DNA from: Cornus controversa
Lineage: Eukaryota > Streptophyta > Magnoliopsida > Cornales > Cornaceae
Direction of reading: 5' to 3'
Length of the DNA: 64,000 nucleotides
Assembly: GCA_026545225.1 (NCBI GenBank)
Contig: CM048848.1
Coordinates: 44,405,806 to 44,469,805, forward strand
A program made the translations under genes and the position numbers. A model generated the notes under the pieces. The model ran no database searches and was not told the origin of the DNA. It saw nothing but the letters and a program-made list of their open reading frames with translations. Below, piece after piece: positions 1 through 57,900 of the stretch (position 1 is the stretch's first letter; every line of letters starts with the position of its first letter).

Positions 1-1692
1 AATTTATGTATATGTGTGAAGGTGACACTGTGTGTTTGATAAATTTTCTTGGAAGCATGTTTAAGTGAAAAACATGATTTAATTGTCAATACATGAATTA
101 TATGAGATGTGGAAGATGTGAAATGTATGAAGTGTGAAACATGTTCAACATGTATGCATATGATATGTAAATGGGAAATCGTACAAACGTGATAATTGAA
201 TGCTTCATTCACTTGATGTTGTAAATGTACATTGGTTTGAACATGTGGGATGCATCTTCATTGGCATTGTGAGGGTGGTGAGCTCAATTAAACGATAAAG
301 TCCTCTCGACGAGTGGCGAGGTAATTCGGTACATGGGAACCCTCATGGGGCGGACCGGTAAAGGAGTCCCAGTTAGAATGGAAGAGGACACTGCCAAAAA
401 TGGAGTCATTCCATGAGGTGGACTGGTATAAGAGTCTCGGATAGGTGGAATTGGTTTGTCCAAGGGAATTGGAGACCAATGGATGTGTGTAGAGGATGAG
501 GGAGGCGTTCATATTATATTGTATTCACATATTGCTTATGATATGGTTGTGGTATATGGATATTTGCTTAACTTGATTAAATACAAATGTATGTTTATGT
601 GGTATTCATGGAACTTGCAGAATTGTGTTTTAGATATTCCTACTGAGCATGTGATTACTCATCCCATGAGGATTAATTCTTTTCAGAAAATAAAAAAAAA
701 AAGTGGTAGAGTCTCCCCAACGATAAAGTTGGTGTGGAGCTGATTTTGGGTTCATTTAAAGACTTATGTTACTTTATTTGAATGCATGTCTGGATTGTGC
801 ACTATATGCATGTGATAAACATGTAAAGATCATTTATGTTTGAGAACATGTATTATTTATGTTTTATGATCGTATATGTTTAAATACATTTTTAAGCATG
901 TGTTGTCCATGACTTATGATTTCAAACATTATAAGCATGGTATGGAGCATGGTAGAATGTTAGATGTTTTAAATGATGACTATTCATTTGTGTTCATTCC
1001 TACATATATAAATTTATGAGAATGGTTGTTATGATATGTTAATAAAATTATGAGGAGTATGTATGCTAAAAATAGAATTTGGACCAAAAATGACCAAAGT
1101 GTGAGGTTGCAGGAAATCCTGTAGAGGGCAATTTCGATCATGCAAAACCAACATTTCGTATGAGCGAAATTTTCAATTGTGTGAAATGTCTATTTCGCAC
1201 ATGTGAAAAATAAAAGGAAAGTTGATACTACTTTGATTGTGCGAGGATTTTGATCATGCAAAACCCACATTTTGCATGTGCGAAACTAGGGTTTTGATCA
1301 TGCAAAATGTTGCAGGAACTGGAAGTGGTAAATGGACTTGTATAAGCATACTTTATTAAGGGATGTCCATGGTGAACTTGAATTGATTATGTATGCATGC
1401 AAACATGATGTTGATGGTATTATGAATGTTTTTACTGATTTTGAGATCACAACCTAGATTAGTTGATCATTGTGACACATCCGATAAATGGTGAACATAT
1501 TGATAAATGTAAAGACTTCTGCTGTATGTAATGATCTTGGTGGTTCGGAGAGAAACTGTGGGTGATGTTGGTAGTAGTTCACCACAATTGTTCAGGTCAT
1601 GGGGCGATGATTGGACAATCGTAACACCTCACTACCCAGAGTTTGGGCTCGAACCGGGGGAGTTCCGGCGATCCGAATTTCGGGGCGTGATA
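1..1692 (-). repeat. LTR-retrotransposon fossil (Gypsy-type LTR, partial)
   Basis: Read on the minus strand, the sequence ending at about 1692 starts with TATCACGCCCCGAAATT, the usual opening of many plant Gypsy-type LTRs. It runs left to the window edge, so the other end is not visible. It holds a block at about 288-450 with recurring GGAC/GGTA phrases like those at 36.0-36.3 kb, and the palindrome array at 1132-1307. No coding domain was seen. Family assignment is inference from the terminal motif alone. Confidence 0.45.
1132..1307. repeat. Array of 16-bp palindromes, 22-bp period (array A)
   Basis: Seven 16-bp imperfect palindromes start at 1132, 1154, 1171, 1193, 1248, 1270 and 1292. Examples are TTTCGTATGAGCGAAA at 1154 and TTTTGATCATGCAAAA at 1248 and 1292. 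Four of the six steps are exactly 22 bp, made of 16 bp of palindrome and a 6-bp spacer. The shared form is TTTC/TTTT, an 8-bp core, then GAAA/AAAA. Two other arrays in this window have the same geometry. Confidence 0.75.
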
Positions 1693-2428
1693 GTTATCTT
1701 CCCAATTCATCCGGCCCAAGGTTCTCGTTGGCACTCCAGCTCTGATACTATTTGTAATAAGCAACTCCATCACAATACATCCCCTTGGAGGCCCAGGGTT
1801 CTCGTTGGCAATCTTTTCGCTGGACTCTAGCTCTGATACCATTTATAACGAGCCAGTCCATCACAATCCACCCCCTTAGAGGCCCAACGTCTTAGTTGGC
1901 ACACTTCCAGCTATGCTCCGGCTCTGATACTAGGTTGACAGTGGTTCTTCCACCCACCCACCTACATGCCCACAATTGTCTTCACAATTCACCCCCTTAG
2001 AGGCCCAATGTTCTTATTGGCACACTTTCAGCTGGCCTCTAACTCTGATCCCATTTGTAACGAACCACTCCACTACATGGTATAATATTGTCCACTTTAG
2101 GCCTGAGCACGCAAAGTTTTGGTTTTGGATTTTACCTTAAAAGACCTCATACCATTTGAAGATGAACCCTACATATATAACACATCCCTTTTTCACACCC
2201 AAACGATATGGGATCATGAGCCCCTTAGCTCCTAATGCAATAGTTCGACAATGATTCTTCCACTCGCCCACCTACATGCCCACAACTAAGGTCTTCACAA
2301 TATATGTTAAATTGATTATGGTGTTTGCTAGTGGATTTCAAGAAATCAACGTTCTGTTGTATATATACATATATATGCATCACCCAAAATGTATATATAA
2401 GTAATATTGCCCAAGTTGTGTGTTTGTT

Positions 2429-11155: not shown

Positions 11156-11391
11156 TCGTGTCTTTGAAAGTTAGAATTTCTAAGTTATCCCGTATAATTT
11201 TCCAATAATTGTTTGGTGGATTTGGTTGAGAGGAATTACATTTGTCATCTAATAGACTATGAGAGCCTTTTAGATAAAAAAAATAAAATAAAAATAAAAA
11301 TAAAAAAAACAACAACAACAACAACAAATATTAATCAAACCTCCTTTTTTCTTATTTTTGAAATTTAAAAACACCATAGACTCATGATAAC

Positions 11392-11930
11392 TAAGGGTAT
11401 ACAAAGAATCAGTGAAATCGAAACTGTAAGAAACCGTATCTGAATCGAACCGAATCGTTCATTACGATTTCGAAACCGAAACCGTTAGAAATATATATAT
11501 AATATAAATGAATAATAATAGTTTCTAAGTTCTAGTGTTTTATATAAATATATAATATATAAAGTATAAAATATATAATATATAAATAAATATTAATACC
11601 TTCTAAATTCTAGTATTCTATTTATATATAAAGTATAAAATATATAATATATAGATAAATACATTTAATTTCTAAGTTCTAATGTTCTATATATTTATAT
11701 AATATACGATCTATAAATAAATACTAATAATTTATAATCTATTGTTATAACTAGGGATGCAAAAGTATAAGTGTGTATCTTGCCAATGTTTTAAAAAAAA
11801 AATTGACAATGAACCATTAAAGAACCGAAACCGCAAAGAACCGGAACCGAACCGAACTCAACGGTTCCGGTTTCAAAATTAAGGAACCGTTAGAAACGGT
11901 TCCGGTTCCGATTCCGGTTCCAGTTCGACC
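11392..11930. mobile_element. hAT-like miniature element, AACCG-rich family (copy 1)
   Basis: It starts TAAGGGTATACAAAG and carries clustered GAACCG/CGGTTC motifs at both ends around an AT-rich core. The core is nearly the same as that of copy 2 at 27329. The core repeats 'ttctaagttctagtgtt..atataatatata' three times. The left end resembles TAGGGGTGCACAAAG of copy 2; the right end lacks the matching inverted terminus, so the element may be clipped. Inverted 19-bp sequences AAAAACACCATAGACTCAT (about 11370) and its complement (about 12000) flank it. Confidence 0.6.
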
Positions 11931-22393: not shown

Positions 22394-22415
22394 ACAAAAA
22401 CTGTTACTCAAGATA

Positions 22416-23713
22416 TGACCCTAGAGGGGGGGTGAATAGGGTCTTAGGCAAATAATTAAATCAAATCCCAGAATTGATTATGATAGGCAATGAATAATGA
22501 GATAATGAAGGAATTTAAACAAGCACAATATAAAAGATTAGAGATAGAGATATTCAAACACAATCAACACAAGGATGTAGCGTGGTTCGGAAACTCCTAC
22601 TCCACGACTCAAGATCCCTTCTTGAGATTTTCCCCAATCCACTATGGTTCTTCCTTGTTGGTGGAGAGCAAACCCTTACAATGGAGAACACAAGCTCCCT
22701 CTTGCTAAGTGAACTTCTTCACTTAGTCTTCTAGGGTTCAGCAACCCTTAACAACTGATGTAGAACAGAATTTGTGATAAAAAGAATGTCTCTTTAAGAA
22801 GAAAACACAACTTCAAGCTCTCAATTCTATAGTTAAAGTTGAATCACGAGTTTGAAGCTCAAGTGTATTGAATGATGGTAGATTGCTATAAATGTTTCTC
22901 AATAAATGCTCAAGAGAAATGTTCTATATCCATAAATGCAGAGCATATCAATATATATATAGCCTTTGCAAAATATAGCTGTTGGAAGGTAGTTGTGAGC
23001 ATTAAATGCACTGAACTAGCCGTTGTATTCAAATTCAGCTACTTTCAGTCGGCTGAAAATAAAGTTTCAGTCAGCTGAAAAGATGCTCTAAAAATATCCA
23101 AGTGTTCTGTCACTTTCAGTCGCCTGAAAGTGCATTTTCAGTCGCCTGAAAGTTCATTTTCAGTCGCCTGAAAAACCACTTTCAGTCGCCTGAAAGTGCA
23201 TTTTCAGCAGGCTGAATCTGCACTTTCAGCTGGCTAAAAATTGATTTCAGTAAGCTGAAATTTAAAAGTCTTAAAAAGATTTTCAACAAAGTGAAGGAAA
23301 GACTTTTGACCTTTTAAAAAAATATCCCTAGGGCTTTAAGAGTTTCTTAGTGATCAAATGACCAGAGATAATATATATGAGAATGCATCATGGTCATGTA
23401 ATGCAAGTGAGCTTCAAACAAGTTATTCAAAAGTAACTTTGACAAATTAAGTCCTATCTCTCACCAAGCTATAACTACCCCATTTCTTCATGCTTGAAAT
23501 GTCTTGAAGCTTTGAGTTATTTCCTTCTTCTTCTCTGAATGTTTTTCTCATGTCATTGTCTCCTTTAATGATCATTCCACCATGTGAATGCCTCCTTTGT
23601 TTATGACAATTATCCTAAGCAATCACTTAATTTAGATGTTAGTGTTTAACATCATTAATGATTTGTTATCATCAAAATTACTGGATTACCCTTAGGTTAA
23701 AACCTTTGGGTCA
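22416..23713. repeat. LTR-type fossil (possible solo LTR)
   Basis: It opens TGACCCTAGAGGGGGGTGAA and closes AACCTTTGGGTCA, so the ends are TG...CA with the inverted hexamer TGACCC/GGGTCA. The interior phrase 'agcgtggttcggaaactcc' is common in plant LTR elements. The 1,298 bp carry no coding domain. ACAAAAACT occurs on both sides (22394 and 23714) but is separated from the left end by 13 bp, so it may not be a true duplication. It contains the palindrome array at 23043-23260. Confidence 0.5.
23043..23260. repeat. Array of nine 16-bp palindromes, 22-bp period (array B)
   Basis: Units start at 23043, 23065, 23114, 23136, 23158, 23180, 23202, 23224 and 23245. The commonest is TTTCAGTCGCCTGAAA, four times in a row. 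Variants change only the core (TCGG, TCAG, CAGG, CTGG, TAAG) and sometimes the last half-site. Steps are 22 bp except one of 49 and one of 21. The 6-bp spacers vary (GTGCAT, GTTCAT, AACCAC). Confidence 0.9.
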
Positions 23714-24059
23714 ACAAAAACTATAAAATAAAGTTATGAATAAATTGTTAACTAAACTTAAAAGATATATTCTTAATTCTAAATAAAATTATTTGCTTCT
23801 ATTATTTAATGGTCTCAAGTATATATCATCTATGTAAGCCGAACTTTAAAAATATTAATATAATAAATATTTTAATTTCTAAAAGGATTTTACCCATCTT
23901 TATTATTTTTGTGTGCAATTTTATTTTTTGAAAAAAACAAATTGCGTCATAGGATTATTTTTATATGAATTTTATCTTAGATAATAATTTTAAAGTTTTA
24001 GCTACTTGTGATTGACATATAGCTTTAATTTTATATTAGTATTTTATTTTTATTTTTTA

Positions 24060-26676: not shown

Positions 26677-27328
26677 CTAAAGTTAGGGTTTGAGTCTTGT
26701 GGTGGCCCGCGAAGAACCAAGAAGCAATAGGCACTTTTGTCCATTTTTTAGAGTTGAGAAAGTGAGATTCTGATTAAAATTGGTGGACTTATCTTGAAAT
26801 GATAGAGTGTTTTGCAGAGCACCTATTCCCATGCATGCAACCAATTAAAAATTTCAAATATACATGTTCTCATATGATATATAATATATAATTGTAAAAA
26901 ATTGAGTTTAGTTTGTTCGGAGTTAATTAATATGACTAGGTTAACGGTAGACGTAAAAGAGGTTATGAGGCTAAAAGTGGGAGTTGTGACAGAATTTGTG
27001 AGCTTATTGTCTTTACCTTAGGTAAGCGTTTGCAAGAGTGCAAGATAGAATTTGGGGCACAACTATATGTCATTATATTATCACAGTGTTATAATATTAT
27101 TAATATTAATATATATATATATATATAATAAAAATAGTTCAGTTTGGTCTTAATGGGTTGTGAACCGAAAACTAATGGTTCCTAAAATTTAGAACTAGAA
27201 CCGAAAAATTGAATGTAATGATTCAGCTCAACTACGATTCTTTATAGTTTAGTTTGATTCAATTCGGTTTACCAGTTTTAGTTCATTGTGTACCTTTAGG
27301 ACCTGTTGTTCCAAGTAGGGATTGCAAG
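26677..27328. other. Intergenic, no gene recognised
   Basis: AT-rich with an (AT)n run near 27110-27126. The segment 27135-27290 contains GAACCGAAA/TTCGGTT-type phrases like those of the AACCG-rich elements nearby, and may be a further eroded copy. Confidence 0.35.
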
Positions 27329-27840
27329 TAGGGGTGCACAAAGAATCGATAGAACCGCAACCGTAAGGAACCATACTTGAACCGAACCGAATCGTTCACT
27401 ACAGTTCCGATTCTAGTTCCAAATCAAGGAACCGAAACTGGAACCGGAACCGTTAGAATATATATATATATATATATATATAATATAATATAATATAAAT
27501 GAATAATAATAGCTTCTAAGTTCTAGTGTTTTATATAAATATATAATATATAAAATATATAAATAAATACTAATACCTTCTAAATTCTAGTGTTCTATTT
27601 ATATAAAGTATAAAATATATAGATAAATACATTTAGCTTATAAGTTCTAATGTTCTATATATTTATATAATATAAGATATATATATAAATATTAATAGCT
27701 TCTAATCTATTATTATAACCAGGGGTGCACAAGTACCAGTGTGTATCTTGCCAATGTTTATAAAAAAAAAATTGACAAAGAACTGTTGAGGAATCGGAAC
27801 CGCAACCGCAAAGAATTGGAACCGAACCAAAGTCAACGGT
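27329..27840. mobile_element. hAT-like miniature element, AACCG-rich family (copy 2)
   Basis: It begins TAGGGGTGCACAAAG and has the same sequence order as copy 1 at 11392: clustered ACCGAACCG motifs, then AT-rich thirds each with 'ttctaagttctagtg', then 'gtgtgtatcttgccaatg', then CGGAACCG motifs. The right terminus is missing where Tourist-like fragments begin, so this copy was probably cut by later insertion or deletion. No duplication was found. Confidence 0.65.
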
Positions 27841-27900
27841 TTCTTAATTTTCAAAAGCCGAAAGCCGCTTTTAAAGCCAATCCAATGGTTTCTTAATTTT

Positions 27901-35143: not shown

Positions 35144-37560
35144 TATAGGGGTCTCGATTGATCGAGATAGGGGTCTCGATTGATTGAAATTCCTCCTTTC
35201 TGGACTCTAAAAATCACCATAAATCATCACCCTTTCGATCAATCGAAATGGGGGTTTCAATTGATCGAAATAGGCATCTCGATTGATCGAAATGCACTAC
35301 CCGGGGCCTCCAGCAACCCTATACATGGTTCACTTGAAGCCCAATCAACATCCTATCATCCTAGAATCCCTCAAACATGATTAAAAACATAAATGGAAGG
35401 TTCCAACACCAATCTCTCTCTCAAGATCACATTTATAATTGACTTCATACACCAAAATGAATCATTTCTTTCACAAACACAACCCATTCATAATGGAAAC
35501 ATCATCAAAATGAATTAAGTGCCACAATGGGCATTACATAAATTAAACCGTTGCCTCTCCACACCCAACAAGTTTAAAATCCAATACATACATCAAAAGT
35601 ACATATGTTCAAAGTACAACCACAACTAAAAAGTAAGTCACATGCCACAAGCCGGCATGGATAGCCACCAAAATGCACAAATCCAAAAGATAGCAAAGGG
35701 CTACTAGAATTCCACTTGGACACTCATGTCCCATCCGTCATCGGCGCTTTATCTGTAAAAGAGTTTATAATAAAGGGGTGAGCACCACTGCGGCTTAGTA
35801 AAGGTTTCCCAACCCTTCTAAGTGCCGACCCGACACGACCTACATGGAATGCATATAAATATACTACATGCCACATCCACAATCTCACAAACACATCAAC
35901 AAATGCAATTAAAGAGAATTGCACATATCACAGAGCATGTATAACATGTTCAAACATACAAGCATTAAGAAAGTAAATGCTATCTCTCTCGGTCCTCATC
36001 CGATACCCTACATGATTAGCCCGCTCCAAATATCATGTAACCTTGGACACTTCCGATAACCATCCAATGACCGGGATAACTCCGAGAGGTCATTATACCA
36101 TAGCAATATATCGGATTGCCATAGAGTGAGGGGACAACTCCGAGGCTCACAATTCATGGACATTCTCCGATAATCATCCTATGACCGGGACAACTCTGAG
36201 GGGTCATTAGTATTGGACATACTCCGATCCTAGCCATTAAGCCTTAGTATGGCGGGTCTACTTCGAGGGCCATACATAGTGGATAATTTTACCACATTTC
36301 ACCACACGGTTGGACCACTCCGAAACCCCGTGCACCTCATTTGCGTCATTTTTTTCGCAACTTCCCACATATGCAATATGAATGCATAAACACATGGCAT
36401 TTTACTTTCATGCTCAATTCATGCTCATTGATACTAAAAGAAGTAACAAGCATATTTCTCATCACCACACACCATATATATGTAAAACACATGCATATAT
36501 CATCTCATATGCATACAACTTCAAAATTAGTATATTTTACTCATGCTACATTCAATGCATAATTTTAGCACATAGAACTAAACATGCATTCAACAACCAC
36601 ATTCCCACATATAATCACATATATGACACTTGGTACACATTTTTCCACATATACATCAAATTGAGCACATAATGCCTATGTATCAATTTCTTACACTCAC
36701 ATACTTCAAATTCACATGCTACCACCAACACAATATACACAATTGTGAAAAGATAGGACTCTAGAGAAGAAGAAAACACAGCTTTTCACACCTCTCACCA
36801 TCCTAAAGCATGTAAAACACAACCTACACCTCTCTTCTTCACCCGAAACCCTAAAATCGACAATTAGAAGAGAAGAAGAACCCCTACCTCGAAAATGAAG
36901 GCCTTCCAAGCACTTCACCAATTTTTCAGTGGAGTCTACCTTACCGAATCACCACTTTGTTCGGTTCAAATGGAAGCCCTAGCCGTCCCCTACGTATCTC
37001 CCTCCTTCGGCGAGCCTTGAATCCAAGCCGAACGGGTTCAAAATGTAGAGAGAAGGGAGAGTTTTGAAGATGGAGAACTTTAGAGAGAGAAAGAGGCGTG
37101 AGATATGGCTGAATATCTCCGCCACTGATATTTAAAATATCTAGGGCTTGCAAAAAGACCAAAATACCCTCTGGCCACTTAACGTACTTTCCCGGACTCC
37201 TTTTTCGATTCCGAAAACTCCTACGGTCTCGAAATCACTTCCTCTACTCTCTAAACATTTTATCTCAGCCATTCTCAAAAATAAATATTTTTAGAAAATT
37301 TCCGGATTCCCAGACCCACTTAAGTCGCACCCCGGGCCCCGGTTTGACTAAAAAGTCAAACTTCTCCAATTCTCCCGAAAATTTTCCAAAACCTTAAAAA
37401 CACTTCTCAAACATATTTTTCACATTCAAAACATGTTAAACACCATTCAAAATGCAATTATGGCAATTATAATGCGAAAAATGCAAAATCAGCCAAAATT
37501 GGTCACGATTTCTACATACCCAACATGGATCAGGCCAACAAAAACGCTTGTTGCTAAACG
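35144..37560. repeat. LTR-retrotransposon fossil with sub-repeats
   Basis: It begins with the palindrome array at 35152, then 'ataaaggggtgagcaccactgcggc'. At 35990-36290 a unit of about 80 bp (type 'gacattctccgataatcatcc..gaccgggacaactctgaggggtcat') is repeated three to four times. Similar phrases occur at 288-450. Open frames of 60-96 codons are not coding. Right border is uncertain ('ggtcacgatttctaca'). Confidence 0.45.
35152..35293. repeat. Array of 16-bp palindromes, 22-bp period (array C)
   Basis: Five units start at 35152, 35174, 35233, 35255 and 35277, such as TCTCGATTGATCGAGA and TTTCGATCAATCGAAA. Three of four steps are exactly 22 bp; the remaining one is 59. Spacers are TAGGGG, TGGGGG and TAGGCA. 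Confidence 0.85.
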
Positions 37561-54900: not shown

Positions 54901-57900
54901 TCATCATGCTTCAAGCAAGTCTTCTAGGGGGCAGGCAAGGTGGAAAAATGGAGGAATTGCAAGAAAGAAACATTCATCATATATGAGTTTTACCTCTGAT
55001 AGTTTGTGGTCTGACATTTTAGAATTTGCAAAACTTAAATACCAGGTATCATAAAACTTCAAGTGAATCATTGGAGTCACCCCAACATCAAACCTTTGAT
55101 AATTTTATGCATTAGTTTATGCTTGAGCACATTTTCTCTTCTGCAGTTTGAGTTGCCAGAGGATGCAAGATCTCGAGTAAAGAAATTTTCGGTTATACGC
55201 AACCTTTGCCAAAAGGTAATTTACACTTATTATTTCTTTGAATAGGTTTAGTTCTCATTTTGCCATCGTGTAGAATTTGCATTTCTGCCTGGACATAGTT
55301 TGCATCATTTATATTATTATTATTTATTTTATTTGTGTGCGTGTCTGTGTGTTTTCATTTTGTCTAACATATCATGTTCTTTCAGTGCCTGGTTCAAACT
55401 ATTATTTGTTAGCCAGTCATAAATGTCTTAAAATAATGCTTCCTACAGCTTTTGGTATATAATAATGTATTCTCGCACCGTTATCTGCTTGATGTAGAAT
55501 GGCTTACCTTATAACATTTGGTGGTTGAGCACATGCTAGAAAGCTGCAAAATTGTTCGGGTAAATCAGATTGCTTGTAAATGCTGAATTTGGAAAGGAAT
55601 GTGAAGGCACAAATTGCACACAGTAACTTACATCTGCATGATTTTTTAAAGGGCTTTTATTAACCTTTGAAACAGGATTTGCACAGCATCCTTTTTGGGC
55701 ATTTGAAGTAATCGACATATCTTAATAAAAATTTAATGCATACCTGCTTTCACCCACTTATTTTTCAGCCTTTTCTCAAATGAAGTTACAATGGCATAGC
55801 CTGCAGGCATGCTGGATGTGCGTTACTGCAATCACTTGTGTGACAAATTTCATAGCATTGAGGTGTGCTGTTATCTTAAAGAAAATCTGAGCTAATTGTT
55901 AAAGTACTCGGCTTGAAACAATTTGCTTCTGCTTCTATTATGTGAATCTGAGTACATCCCCCCATTTTCCTGCATTTTGTTTTGCATGACAAACGCACTA
56001 TTATTATCATACATTTTAGATTTGGAATTTCTTCTGTTGTTGGATTATTGACATATGTTTAAGCTTCTGTTCAGAATCCTTGAGTATTATTGCTTGTACA
56101 TCTATCAATTACAGTGGAGAGTGAAGAAACTCTAAGGGGGCAAGCATTGAGCAGGCGAAGGCAATGAGTGAAGCCTGTTTTGGGGTGCTTTATGGCAACT
56201 GGCATTTGCCTATTTGTCGTCATTTTGGAATAAAGGAAAAATTAGCTAAGACACAAGAATCTTATTAGTAGCCATGTAAAACCTCTAAGTTTAAGCTTCT
56301 AGATGGATGTGGGGTAAATTATGTCTTACTATAATACAGGGTGTTCACCTGTAGCTTTCAGTTATATTTCACGAGGGGTTGTTAGATAACTTATCTTTTG
56401 GTCTCCAATAAAATAAACAATGCTTGAATTTGGTGCTCAACAGGTAGGCATAACCATTGCAGCTTGCAAATATGATCTTGATGCTGCGGCACCTTTCCAA
56501 ATATCAGATATTTTGAATGTCCAACCTATCGTGAAGCATTCTATTCCAGTATGTTCGGAGGCTAAGGATCTCGTGGAAACGGGAAAGGTCCAGTTGGCTG
56601 AGGTATGCACTGTTGTTTTATGTTTTTGTGAACTGATTATAAACCATACATTGTAGCCACCATAGGGCCAAATATCAGGATTCGAGAAGAAATCAAAGGC
56701 AACAATATTTACTGTTTTTCTGAACAAGTGGAAACTCTAACTCAAGGTTGAATTAATGTGGAGGCGAAGCAACGGTTGCTCGAAAATGGAGATATCATAT
56801 ATCTAGAACTAGTTAAAATAATAAAGAACTCGTTGCATTGCCTGTGATATGCAGTAACATAGTTTGAATGGAAAGAGTTAACATATGATTTAAATTCTAG
56901 GGTAAATATCACGGACACCCCCTGAGGTTTGAAGTATTATCACATGGCTACACTTTTGCTAAATTTCGTCACAAACACTCCCTGTCAGCTTTTCCAACCA
57001 AACGGTGTCATAATGGCGTTAGATTAGGCATGAAATGTCACATTTGCCCTTCATTTTATAATGATTTTATAAACAAAAAGAAATTGTATATGAAAGGACC
57101 ATATTGCCCCCATAATAAAAAGAAAATATATTTTTCTCTTTGGGCCCCACCCCTCCATCTATCCCACTCTCCACTGTCCACAACCAACCCTTATATATGT
57201 ATTCTGTCTATATATATATATATGTAGGAGTGAGGGTGTATGAGGGCTGTAAACCCTCGTGGATTGGTTTAGAGAGAGAGAGATAGAGAGGGGTTTGGCC
57301 ATATATGAAAGGACCATATTGCCCCCATAATAAAAAGAAAATTTATTTTTCTCTTTGGGCCCCACCCCTCCATCTATCCCACTCTCCACTGTCCACAACC
57401 AACCCTTATATATGTATTCTGTCTATATATATATATATGTATGTATGTATATGCTCCGATCACTGGCCACCACCATCGAACACCATGGCCAAACCCCTCT
57501 CTATCTCTCTCTCTCTAAACCAATCCACGAGGGTTTACAACCCTCATACACCCTCACTCCTACAAACTCCCACAAACCCAATCCTCCTCTCATTCTTCTC
57601 TCCTAAAACCAGTAGCATCATATACCATGAAGACCCACAGTGAAATAAGTAACACCACCACCACCACCACCGTCAACCCAGGCCAAACAAACCCAAATCA
57701 CCACTACCATGTGAACCTCCATGAACACCATCACCAAACCCACAACAATAGCTAGCTCACCACCAAGTCGGTTAGCAACCCTCAAGAAACCCTCTTTGCT
57801 CCCTCAAACCCATCTCTCTTCTTCCTCTAAACCATTAACACCATGAAAACCCATCTCTGCTCTCTCACTATACCACCATGAAAATATGTCAAAATACCCA

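Follow-up and report, generated by a model that had tools for sequence, protein, structure and literature searches.

Palindromic 16-bp arrays in long terminal repeats of three retrotransposon lineages of Cornus controversa: putative promoter modules with concertedly differing cores

A 64,000-nucleotide stretch of the Cornus controversa genome (GenBank assembly GCA_026545225.1, contig CM048848.1, positions 44,405,806 to 44,469,805 of the forward strand; the whole stretch is referred to as the window) contains three arrays of a 16-bp palindromic unit, TTTC-N8-GAAA. All three lie inside long terminal repeats (LTRs) of retrotransposons or pieces thereof, as the LTR-like surroundings described in a first-pass annotation had suggested. 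Judged from sequence comparison within this one plant genome, such arrays are probably cis-regulatory modules of LTR retrotransposon promoters, that is, rows of sites at which a dimeric protein would bind, with a specificity that switches in concert along an array. The unit occurs in three lineages, namely Tekay-like and Athila-type Ty3/gypsy as well as SIRE-like Ty1/copia elements, and across six homologous gypsy arrays the inner cores differ together, with little such difference in spacers, linker and flanks.

Direct reading of the window confirmed the three arrays at the positions annotated. Array 1 (1132..1307, plus strand) comprises seven palindromic sites starting at 1132, 1154, 1171, 1193, 1248, 1270 and 1292 (steps of 22, 17, 22, 55, 22 and 22 bp) with partly CpG-decayed cores of the GATCATGC/GATTGTGC type (dialect D2, see below). 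Array 2 (23043..23260, minus strand) has nine sites with cores of the AGTCGCCT/AGCAGGCT type (D4) at 23043, 23065, 23114, 23136, 23158, 23180, 23202, 23224 and 23245 (steps of 22, 49, five times 22, and 21 bp), grouped into sub-arrays of seven and two sites on either side of a 33-nt linker (23081-23113). Array 3 (35152..35292, minus strand) carries the core GATTGATC (D1) in five sites at 35152, 35174, 35233, 35255 and 35277 (steps of 22, 59, 22 and 22 bp). In general, units are usually 22 bp apart and grouped into sub-arrays with linkers between them. The 22-bp step proposed earlier is hence the commonest pitch and not a universal one, as steps of 17, 21, 49, 55 and 59 bp also occur; likewise, the half-sites TTTC and GAAA said to be shared by all arrays are enriched genome-wide, but three of the five sites of array 3 begin with TCTC.

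This shared geometry is not due to chance or base composition, since it is enriched in the window and genome-wide with a dominant core length of 8 nt. Scanning of the whole 772-Mb assembly for TTTC-N8-GAAA-N6-TTTC yielded 5797 matches on the plus and 5815 on the minus strand, compared with 161 and 164 for a reversed-pattern control; these are pattern matches, several per array and often on both strands of one place, and not array numbers. In the window, 16 exact TTTC-N8-GAAA sites were counted against 1-5 in five Markov-simulated sequences, and 99 sites with up to one mismatch against 67-89 in five other simulated sequences. Pairs of exact sites were found six times at a distance of 22 and twice at 44, with at most one pair at every other distance from 14 to 59. 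When the core was freed to 2-14 nt (11207 plus-strand matches in total, control 3570), 72 of the 100 listed places had 8 nt and every other length at most 7; when the spacer was allowed to vary from 0 to 12 nt (12885 versus 2963 for the control), the 100 listed places comprised 37 with 6 nt, 14 with 5 nt, 11 with 1 nt and 8 with 0 nt, and at most 7 for each remaining length. Both tallies are regional samples that reach 5.6 and 3.7 Mb into contig C1, and neighbouring rows in them overlap. Window simulations, reversed-pattern control and freed searches thus led us to reject chance and base composition as source of the arrays. The common constraint on half-sites and spacing supposed in the first-pass annotation is borne out by the enrichment and the fixed core length: in this genome, the half-sites exceed their control, and no other period is as common as 22 bp in the window or among the places listed.

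Hosts were classified from 20 stretches that take in 17 array regions of C1; as these regions had been selected for matching the pattern, host statistics do not represent an unbiased sample. A chain of at least three sites was present in 15 of the 17 regions (the exceptions being L039 and L046), no array was found around the pattern match in L016 and L018, and the host classification does not include C1_1248000, L039 and L056. By domain order and polypurine tracts, the host of array 2 is classed with the Ty1/copia Sireviruses, and arrays 1 and 3 lie in gypsy LTRs. Array 2 resides in a 1315-bp SIRE-like solo LTR (22402..23716, minus strand) with TG...CA ends, which is flanked by the target-site duplication AAAAC on the left (22397..22401) and right (23717..23721). 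Of 2396 candidates, 40 were scored and gave at least 40 other long matches (87-99% identity); the listed matches include 13 pairs 7.9-8.6 kb apart, corresponding to LTR pairs. One family copy encodes an integrase (rve) followed by RVT_2, which is the Ty1/copia order, and as the array is written here on the other strand than these two domains, its sense strand is the minus strand. Four GGGGGAG polypurine copies precede the LTR in a SIRE-like family copy, and multiple polypurine tracts are a Sirevirus mark (PMC2829016).

Arrays 1 and 3 lie in related gypsy LTRs according to BLAST, which connects an element at C1:6308836-6326468 to array 3 and, via L042 and L047, to array 1; the earlier statement that the three hosts otherwise look unalike therefore fails for these two. 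The lineage is presumably Tekay. Array 1 belongs to the 3' part of a Tekay-like LTR (1..1693, plus strand; end approximate) that starts 866 bp before the window (L051:1135), with 73.6% identity to L047 over 2.6 kb and 77% to L042 over 2.0 kb. Array 3 is contained in a Tekay-like LTR fragment (35152..37516, minus strand) starting at 37516, the homology of which stops at the array. At about C1:6308836-6326468 (L033-L035), such an element forms a tandem LTR-internal-LTR-internal-LTR structure with LTRs of approximately 2.68 kb, repeats 98-99.5% alike and an array around 1.9 kb into each LTR. Its LTR begins with TGTAGAGACCG, ends with GGGGCATGACA and is followed by TGGTATCAGAGC, a binding site of Met-tRNA type, while its gag frame matches Retrotrans_gag and Ty3_capsid (PF03732/PF19259) and L042, a related locus, has a frame matching the Tf2-1-like SH3 domain PF24626. 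The first internal region of the tandem copy holds gag frames and no other frame of at least 150 aa, suggestive of a gag-only element type in tandem. Within the window, 1725-2049 consists of tandem copies of about 91 bp, the consensus unit of which includes GCTCTGATACCA, the complement of a Met-tRNA type primer-binding site.

The third host, an Athila-type gypsy element, carries arrays of the same 16-bp unit both in its LTR and between pol and a gene of the PF20167 family. Its label would follow from the long pol frame, as read from the translation, the TGGCGCCGTTGCC sites of related loci and the PF20167 gene. Array steps are 16, 17, 21 and 22 bp in this element, and TCTC/GAGA variants predominate in four of the seven LTR copies aligned. 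A PF20167 gene is also present in the SIRE-like copy L069 (89-1342), which encodes a 418-aa protein above the cut-off (E = 4.5e-24), while the 430-aa frame of the Athila-type locus L036 (2911-4200; E = 8.4e-9, 36 bits) is below the curated cut-off of 45. Both proteins have a common layout of domain, acidic stretch and a C-terminal tail read as coiled coil, the copia protein having in addition a basic N-terminus. This common layout in copia and Athila-type hosts hints at a possible accessory-gene exchange between superfamilies; a search of the PDB with the L069 protein gave no match.

In two of the three lineages the arrays are found close to a promoter. Array 2 spans positions of about 457-674 of the 1315-bp LTR in sense direction, mostly its upper half, and the TATA box CTATATATATA (22950..22961, minus strand) follows 81 bp downstream; a TATA-like stretch is kept in related copia copies including L053, which is only 67% alike. 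In the Athila-type internal region, the array ends approximately 30 bp before the TATA box TCTATTTAAACC; further downstream come a leader rich in pyrimidines, a possible splice donor site and the frame of the PF20167 gene. For Tekay-like LTRs, a conserved CATTTATAT in three aligned LTRs represents a candidate TATA, of which none was seen in four D2 LTRs aligned alongside.

Cores occur in dialects, namely GATTGATC (D1), GATTGTGC (D2), GATGCATC, AGYCGGCT (D4) and AGRCATCT (D5). Array 3 aligns site by site with the arrays in C1_6308000, L038, L042, L054 and L057, giving six homologous Tekay-like arrays of five sites each, three of D1 (C1_6308000, L038, array 3) and three of D2 (L042, L054, L057). 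In D1 arrays, both halves read AT at their two diagnostic positions in 15/15 sites, whereas in D2 arrays one AT half is combined with one CA half in 13/15 sites. The change is in the right half at sites 1, 3 and 5, but in the left half at sites 2 and 4. Mismatches in the inner core accordingly amount to 93/180 (0.52) between dialects and 6/120 (0.05) within them, compared with 27/162 (0.17) versus 17/108 (0.16) in spacers, 75/297 (0.25) versus 51/198 (0.26) in the linker and 224/807 (0.28) versus 118/529 (0.22) in flanks. For core edges (35/90 versus 16/60), core centres (29/90 versus 14/60) and outer half-sites (51/360 versus 25/240) the same comparison was made; Fisher values for these mismatches are descriptive only, as cells are not independent. 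When states were permuted among loci, with descent ignored, the concordance among sites was matched in 2 of 20000 permutations. The earlier notion of a core free to change is thus right in that the core may change, but not in the sense of free drift, as homologous sites of the six gypsy arrays changed together. Moreover, the same change is seen site after site while site-specific spacers stay alike, so that wholesale re-amplification of one unit gives no explanation, and the pattern calls for either parallel substitutions or conversion over very short tracts. In the copia family, where copies gain or lose whole array units, the outer half-sites are the most conserved class of the alignment (122/2552 mismatches, compared with 838/9687 in flanks, 314/2552 in cores, 345/2178 in linkers and 165/770 in spacers), an alignment that unit gain and loss may disturb.

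Dialects are also shared between lineages. D4 was found in copia LTRs (array 2, L043, L044) and in gypsy LTRs (L048, L049), the latter two being nested, broken loci with a lineage assigned from partial LTR homology. D5 occurs in copia LTR L053 and beside the gypsy LTR segment L055, and D1 is common to Tekay-like and Athila-type hosts. The linker of the Athila internal region resembles that of Tekay-like LTRs with p ≤ 0.0214 in nine of nine comparisons and ≤ 0.0016 in seven, the nine Tekay-like linkers being mutually related. Linker ends had been picked by eye with the alignments in view. Between gypsy (seven) and copia (three) linkers, p was below 0.05 in 7 of 21 pairs (uncorrected, best 0.002), and a 27-nt stretch, GAAACTTTATTTTCAGCCGACTGAAAG, is common to L049 and array 2. 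As the other 14 pairs were not below 0.05, the linker was set aside as proof of copia-gypsy homology; exchange between these superfamilies, judged by the linker, appears suggestive, and the Athila-Tekay similarity seems the firmer of the two.

Mechanistically, each 16-bp site can be described as two inverted half-sites, each consisting of TTTC and a putative specificity part of 3-4 nt, to which a dimeric sequence-specific protein would bind. At a pitch of 22 bp, half-site centres alternate by 12 and 10 bp, approximately one helical turn, which would suit cooperative binding on one face of the DNA; of the options named in the first-pass annotation, dimer binding would fit best. Upstream of TATA, in the SIRE-like U3 and at the Athila internal promoter, arrays may act as enhancers of the element's promoter, and change of the specificity part across a whole array would track a switch of the trans-acting factor. 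This factor more likely belongs to a host transcription-factor family, the plainer guess given that the stretches searched contained no PF20167 frame within a Tekay-like element; an element-encoded protein is possible. To our knowledge, none of the established plant motifs (MADS-type CArG, heat-shock element, E2F and others) seems to fit all dialects. The constant C at half-site position 4 often precedes G or AG, a CG/CHG methylation context, with exceptions such as TTTCAAG, and binding might depend on methylation of this C.

Several points weigh against such a regulatory role with concerted switching. Two of the 15 D2 sites deviate (site 2 of L054 has GA, site 5 of L042 fits neither state), and dialects were assigned from the cores, which makes the contrast between and within dialects partly one by construction. 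One ancestral switch may be common to all three D2 arrays, and the permutation takes no account of descent. Core changes could also be spread by slippage and by conversion of short tracts, with no factor involved; copia copies do gain and lose whole units. The pitch is not strictly 22 bp: other pitches occur, spacers of 0, 1 and 5 nt are common among the listed places and Athila arrays step by 16-22 bp. The Tekay-like TATA is a candidate only and lies about 250 bp downstream of the array. Finally, env-like genes are described as transcribed from the LTR promoter (PMC7264820), which runs against an internal promoter.

As an alternative to a host factor, the arrays could be targets of an element-encoded transactivator or anti-silencer similar to VANC, with the PF20167 protein as candidate and Tekay-like elements borrowing the sites. 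We consider this unlikely, even though the PF20167 gene lies downstream of pol in both SIRE-like (L069) and Athila-type (L036) hosts and, in the latter, has a TATA box ahead of it together with the sites that the LTR also carries. We know of no DNA binding by PF20167 proteins, those of L069 and L036 show no likeness by BLASTP, and tblastn with both matched four of 21 sequences (the 20 stretches and the window), namely L035, L036, L043 and L050, none of the matches being in a Tekay-like element, with many stretches representing partial elements. For a sunflower Athila protein with similarity to PF20167, nuclear localisation has been predicted (PMC11728184), and VANC targets do show concerted motif change (PMC5735166). 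A more specific proposal is regarded as quite unlikely: the PF20167 proteins of SIRE-like and Athila-type elements would act in the nucleus as dimers that bind the arrays and activate transcription or counter silencing, and a second, array-driven promoter would produce them, giving a two-promoter circuit like that of foamy viruses. As their recognition evolved, the arrays of target families would switch dialect in concert, and elements devoid of the gene, the Tekay-like ones, would parasitise the circuit through the same sites.

Very unlikely, in turn, is that the palindromes serve as hairpins or as sources or targets of small RNAs, with host small interfering RNAs driving array evolution. LTR palindromes of maize Sireviruses are small-RNA hotspots (PMC5311732, citing Bousios 2016), all four arrays tested fold better as RNA than shuffled sequences (z = -7.96, -5.77, -8.98 and -3.67), and oppositely oriented D2 units still pair with each other. 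Folding strength is no independent evidence, however, because any array of palindromes folds well, and nearly all D2 sites have lost, relative to D1, two inner pairs of the hairpin that a site could form on its own. As array 2 lies upstream of TATA in sense direction and outside the main transcript, the hairpin RNA envisaged in the first-pass annotation is improbable for this array in the element's own RNA. Least probable, and disfavoured, are functionless neutral minisatellites in which slippage or conversion multiplied a chance palindrome: copia copies do differ by whole units, but core length and half-sites are the same in three lineages, arrays are promoter-proximal in two, and cores track dialect while spacers do not.

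Among known systems, repeated enhancer boxes in the U3 of Tnt1 and Tto1 have sequences different from those of the arrays, and foamy viruses combine U3 and an internal promoter with Tas, two promoters using one site class, again with other sequences. While no named system had come to mind initially, palindromic 'RM boxes' have already been described upstream of TATA in 13 Sireviruses (Bousios et al. 2010, PMC2829016) and are the closest one known: array 2 would work like RM boxes but without the CGG-CCG core. It shares with them the Sirevirus host, several palindromic sites (nine here, at least eight boxes per element there) and a TATA box shortly downstream, at 81 bp compared with about 80 bp as derived from averages of 45 and 37 bp. 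RM boxes start 200-400 bp into the LTR, in its upper half, and array 2, though mostly in the upper half, starts later (about 457); the CGG-CCG core, present in all but Tnd-1, is absent here as a dyad (cores AGTCGCCT, AGCAGGCT etc.); eight of 13 consensus boxes are shorter than the 16 bp of the present units; and outer TTTTC/GAAAA occurs in Osr9 only, with 10 nt between TTTC and GAAA instead of 8. RM boxes are described as forming CpG islands (PMC2829016). In LTRs of eudicot Del elements, no CpG island was reported (PMC4029996). They are also found upstream of the ENV gene in the nine Sireviruses that have one, where an internal promoter was favoured without conclusive finding; the Athila-type element may offer a counterpart. 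RM boxes were called Sirevirus-specific in comparison with classic Ty1/copia, whereas the present arrays extend to two gypsy lineages, and the available text of PMC2829016 reports no site-by-site switch between homologous arrays.

Tandem short non-coding motifs that change together between related families are likewise known from the VANC/VANDAL system (PMC5735166, PMC10398659). Its hosts, however, are DNA transposons encoding VANC and not LTR retrotransposons with gag, integrase or reverse transcriptase, its motifs change via repeat gain and loss whereas spacers and linkers are kept here and cores differ, and 'palindrome' is absent from the main text of both papers. A VANDAL Mutator-like element as host was dropped once gag, primer-binding site and LTR copies had been found. 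A precedent for an LTR motif common to gypsy and copia is given by RLG_Quinta and RLC_Gisela of einkorn wheat, this motif being a nucleosome-placing sequence of 162 bp and no palindrome array (PMC11302176). The literature covered, with subscription papers mostly outside the search, reports no such arrays in Tekay or Athila elements, and a search for six 16-mers of the array type returned no paper. Hence, the occurrence of one unit in three lineages and the site-by-site switch between homologous arrays appear to be new, as do the resemblance in linker sequence of an Athila internal promoter to Tekay-like LTRs and the presence of a PF20167 gene in copia and Athila-type hosts.

Elsewhere in the window, 11389-11866 and 27326-27841 are two related copies in direct orientation, at a distance of 15.9 kb and with about 76-88% identity, that include AT-rich tandem units, and 57087-57441 contains two 140-bp direct copies with 99% identity and starts 215 bp apart.

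RM boxes were described in 2010 without a binding factor. The dialects D1 and D2 now provide natural variants that differ consistently in the diagnostic core bases, and with one unit in three lineages and dialects differing at nearly every site, the question of the factor becomes directly testable. If true, the PF20167 proposal would assign a role to an accessory gene that at present is annotated as envelope-like or transposase, and the arrays would be a case of different retrotransposon lineages sharing one regulatory module.
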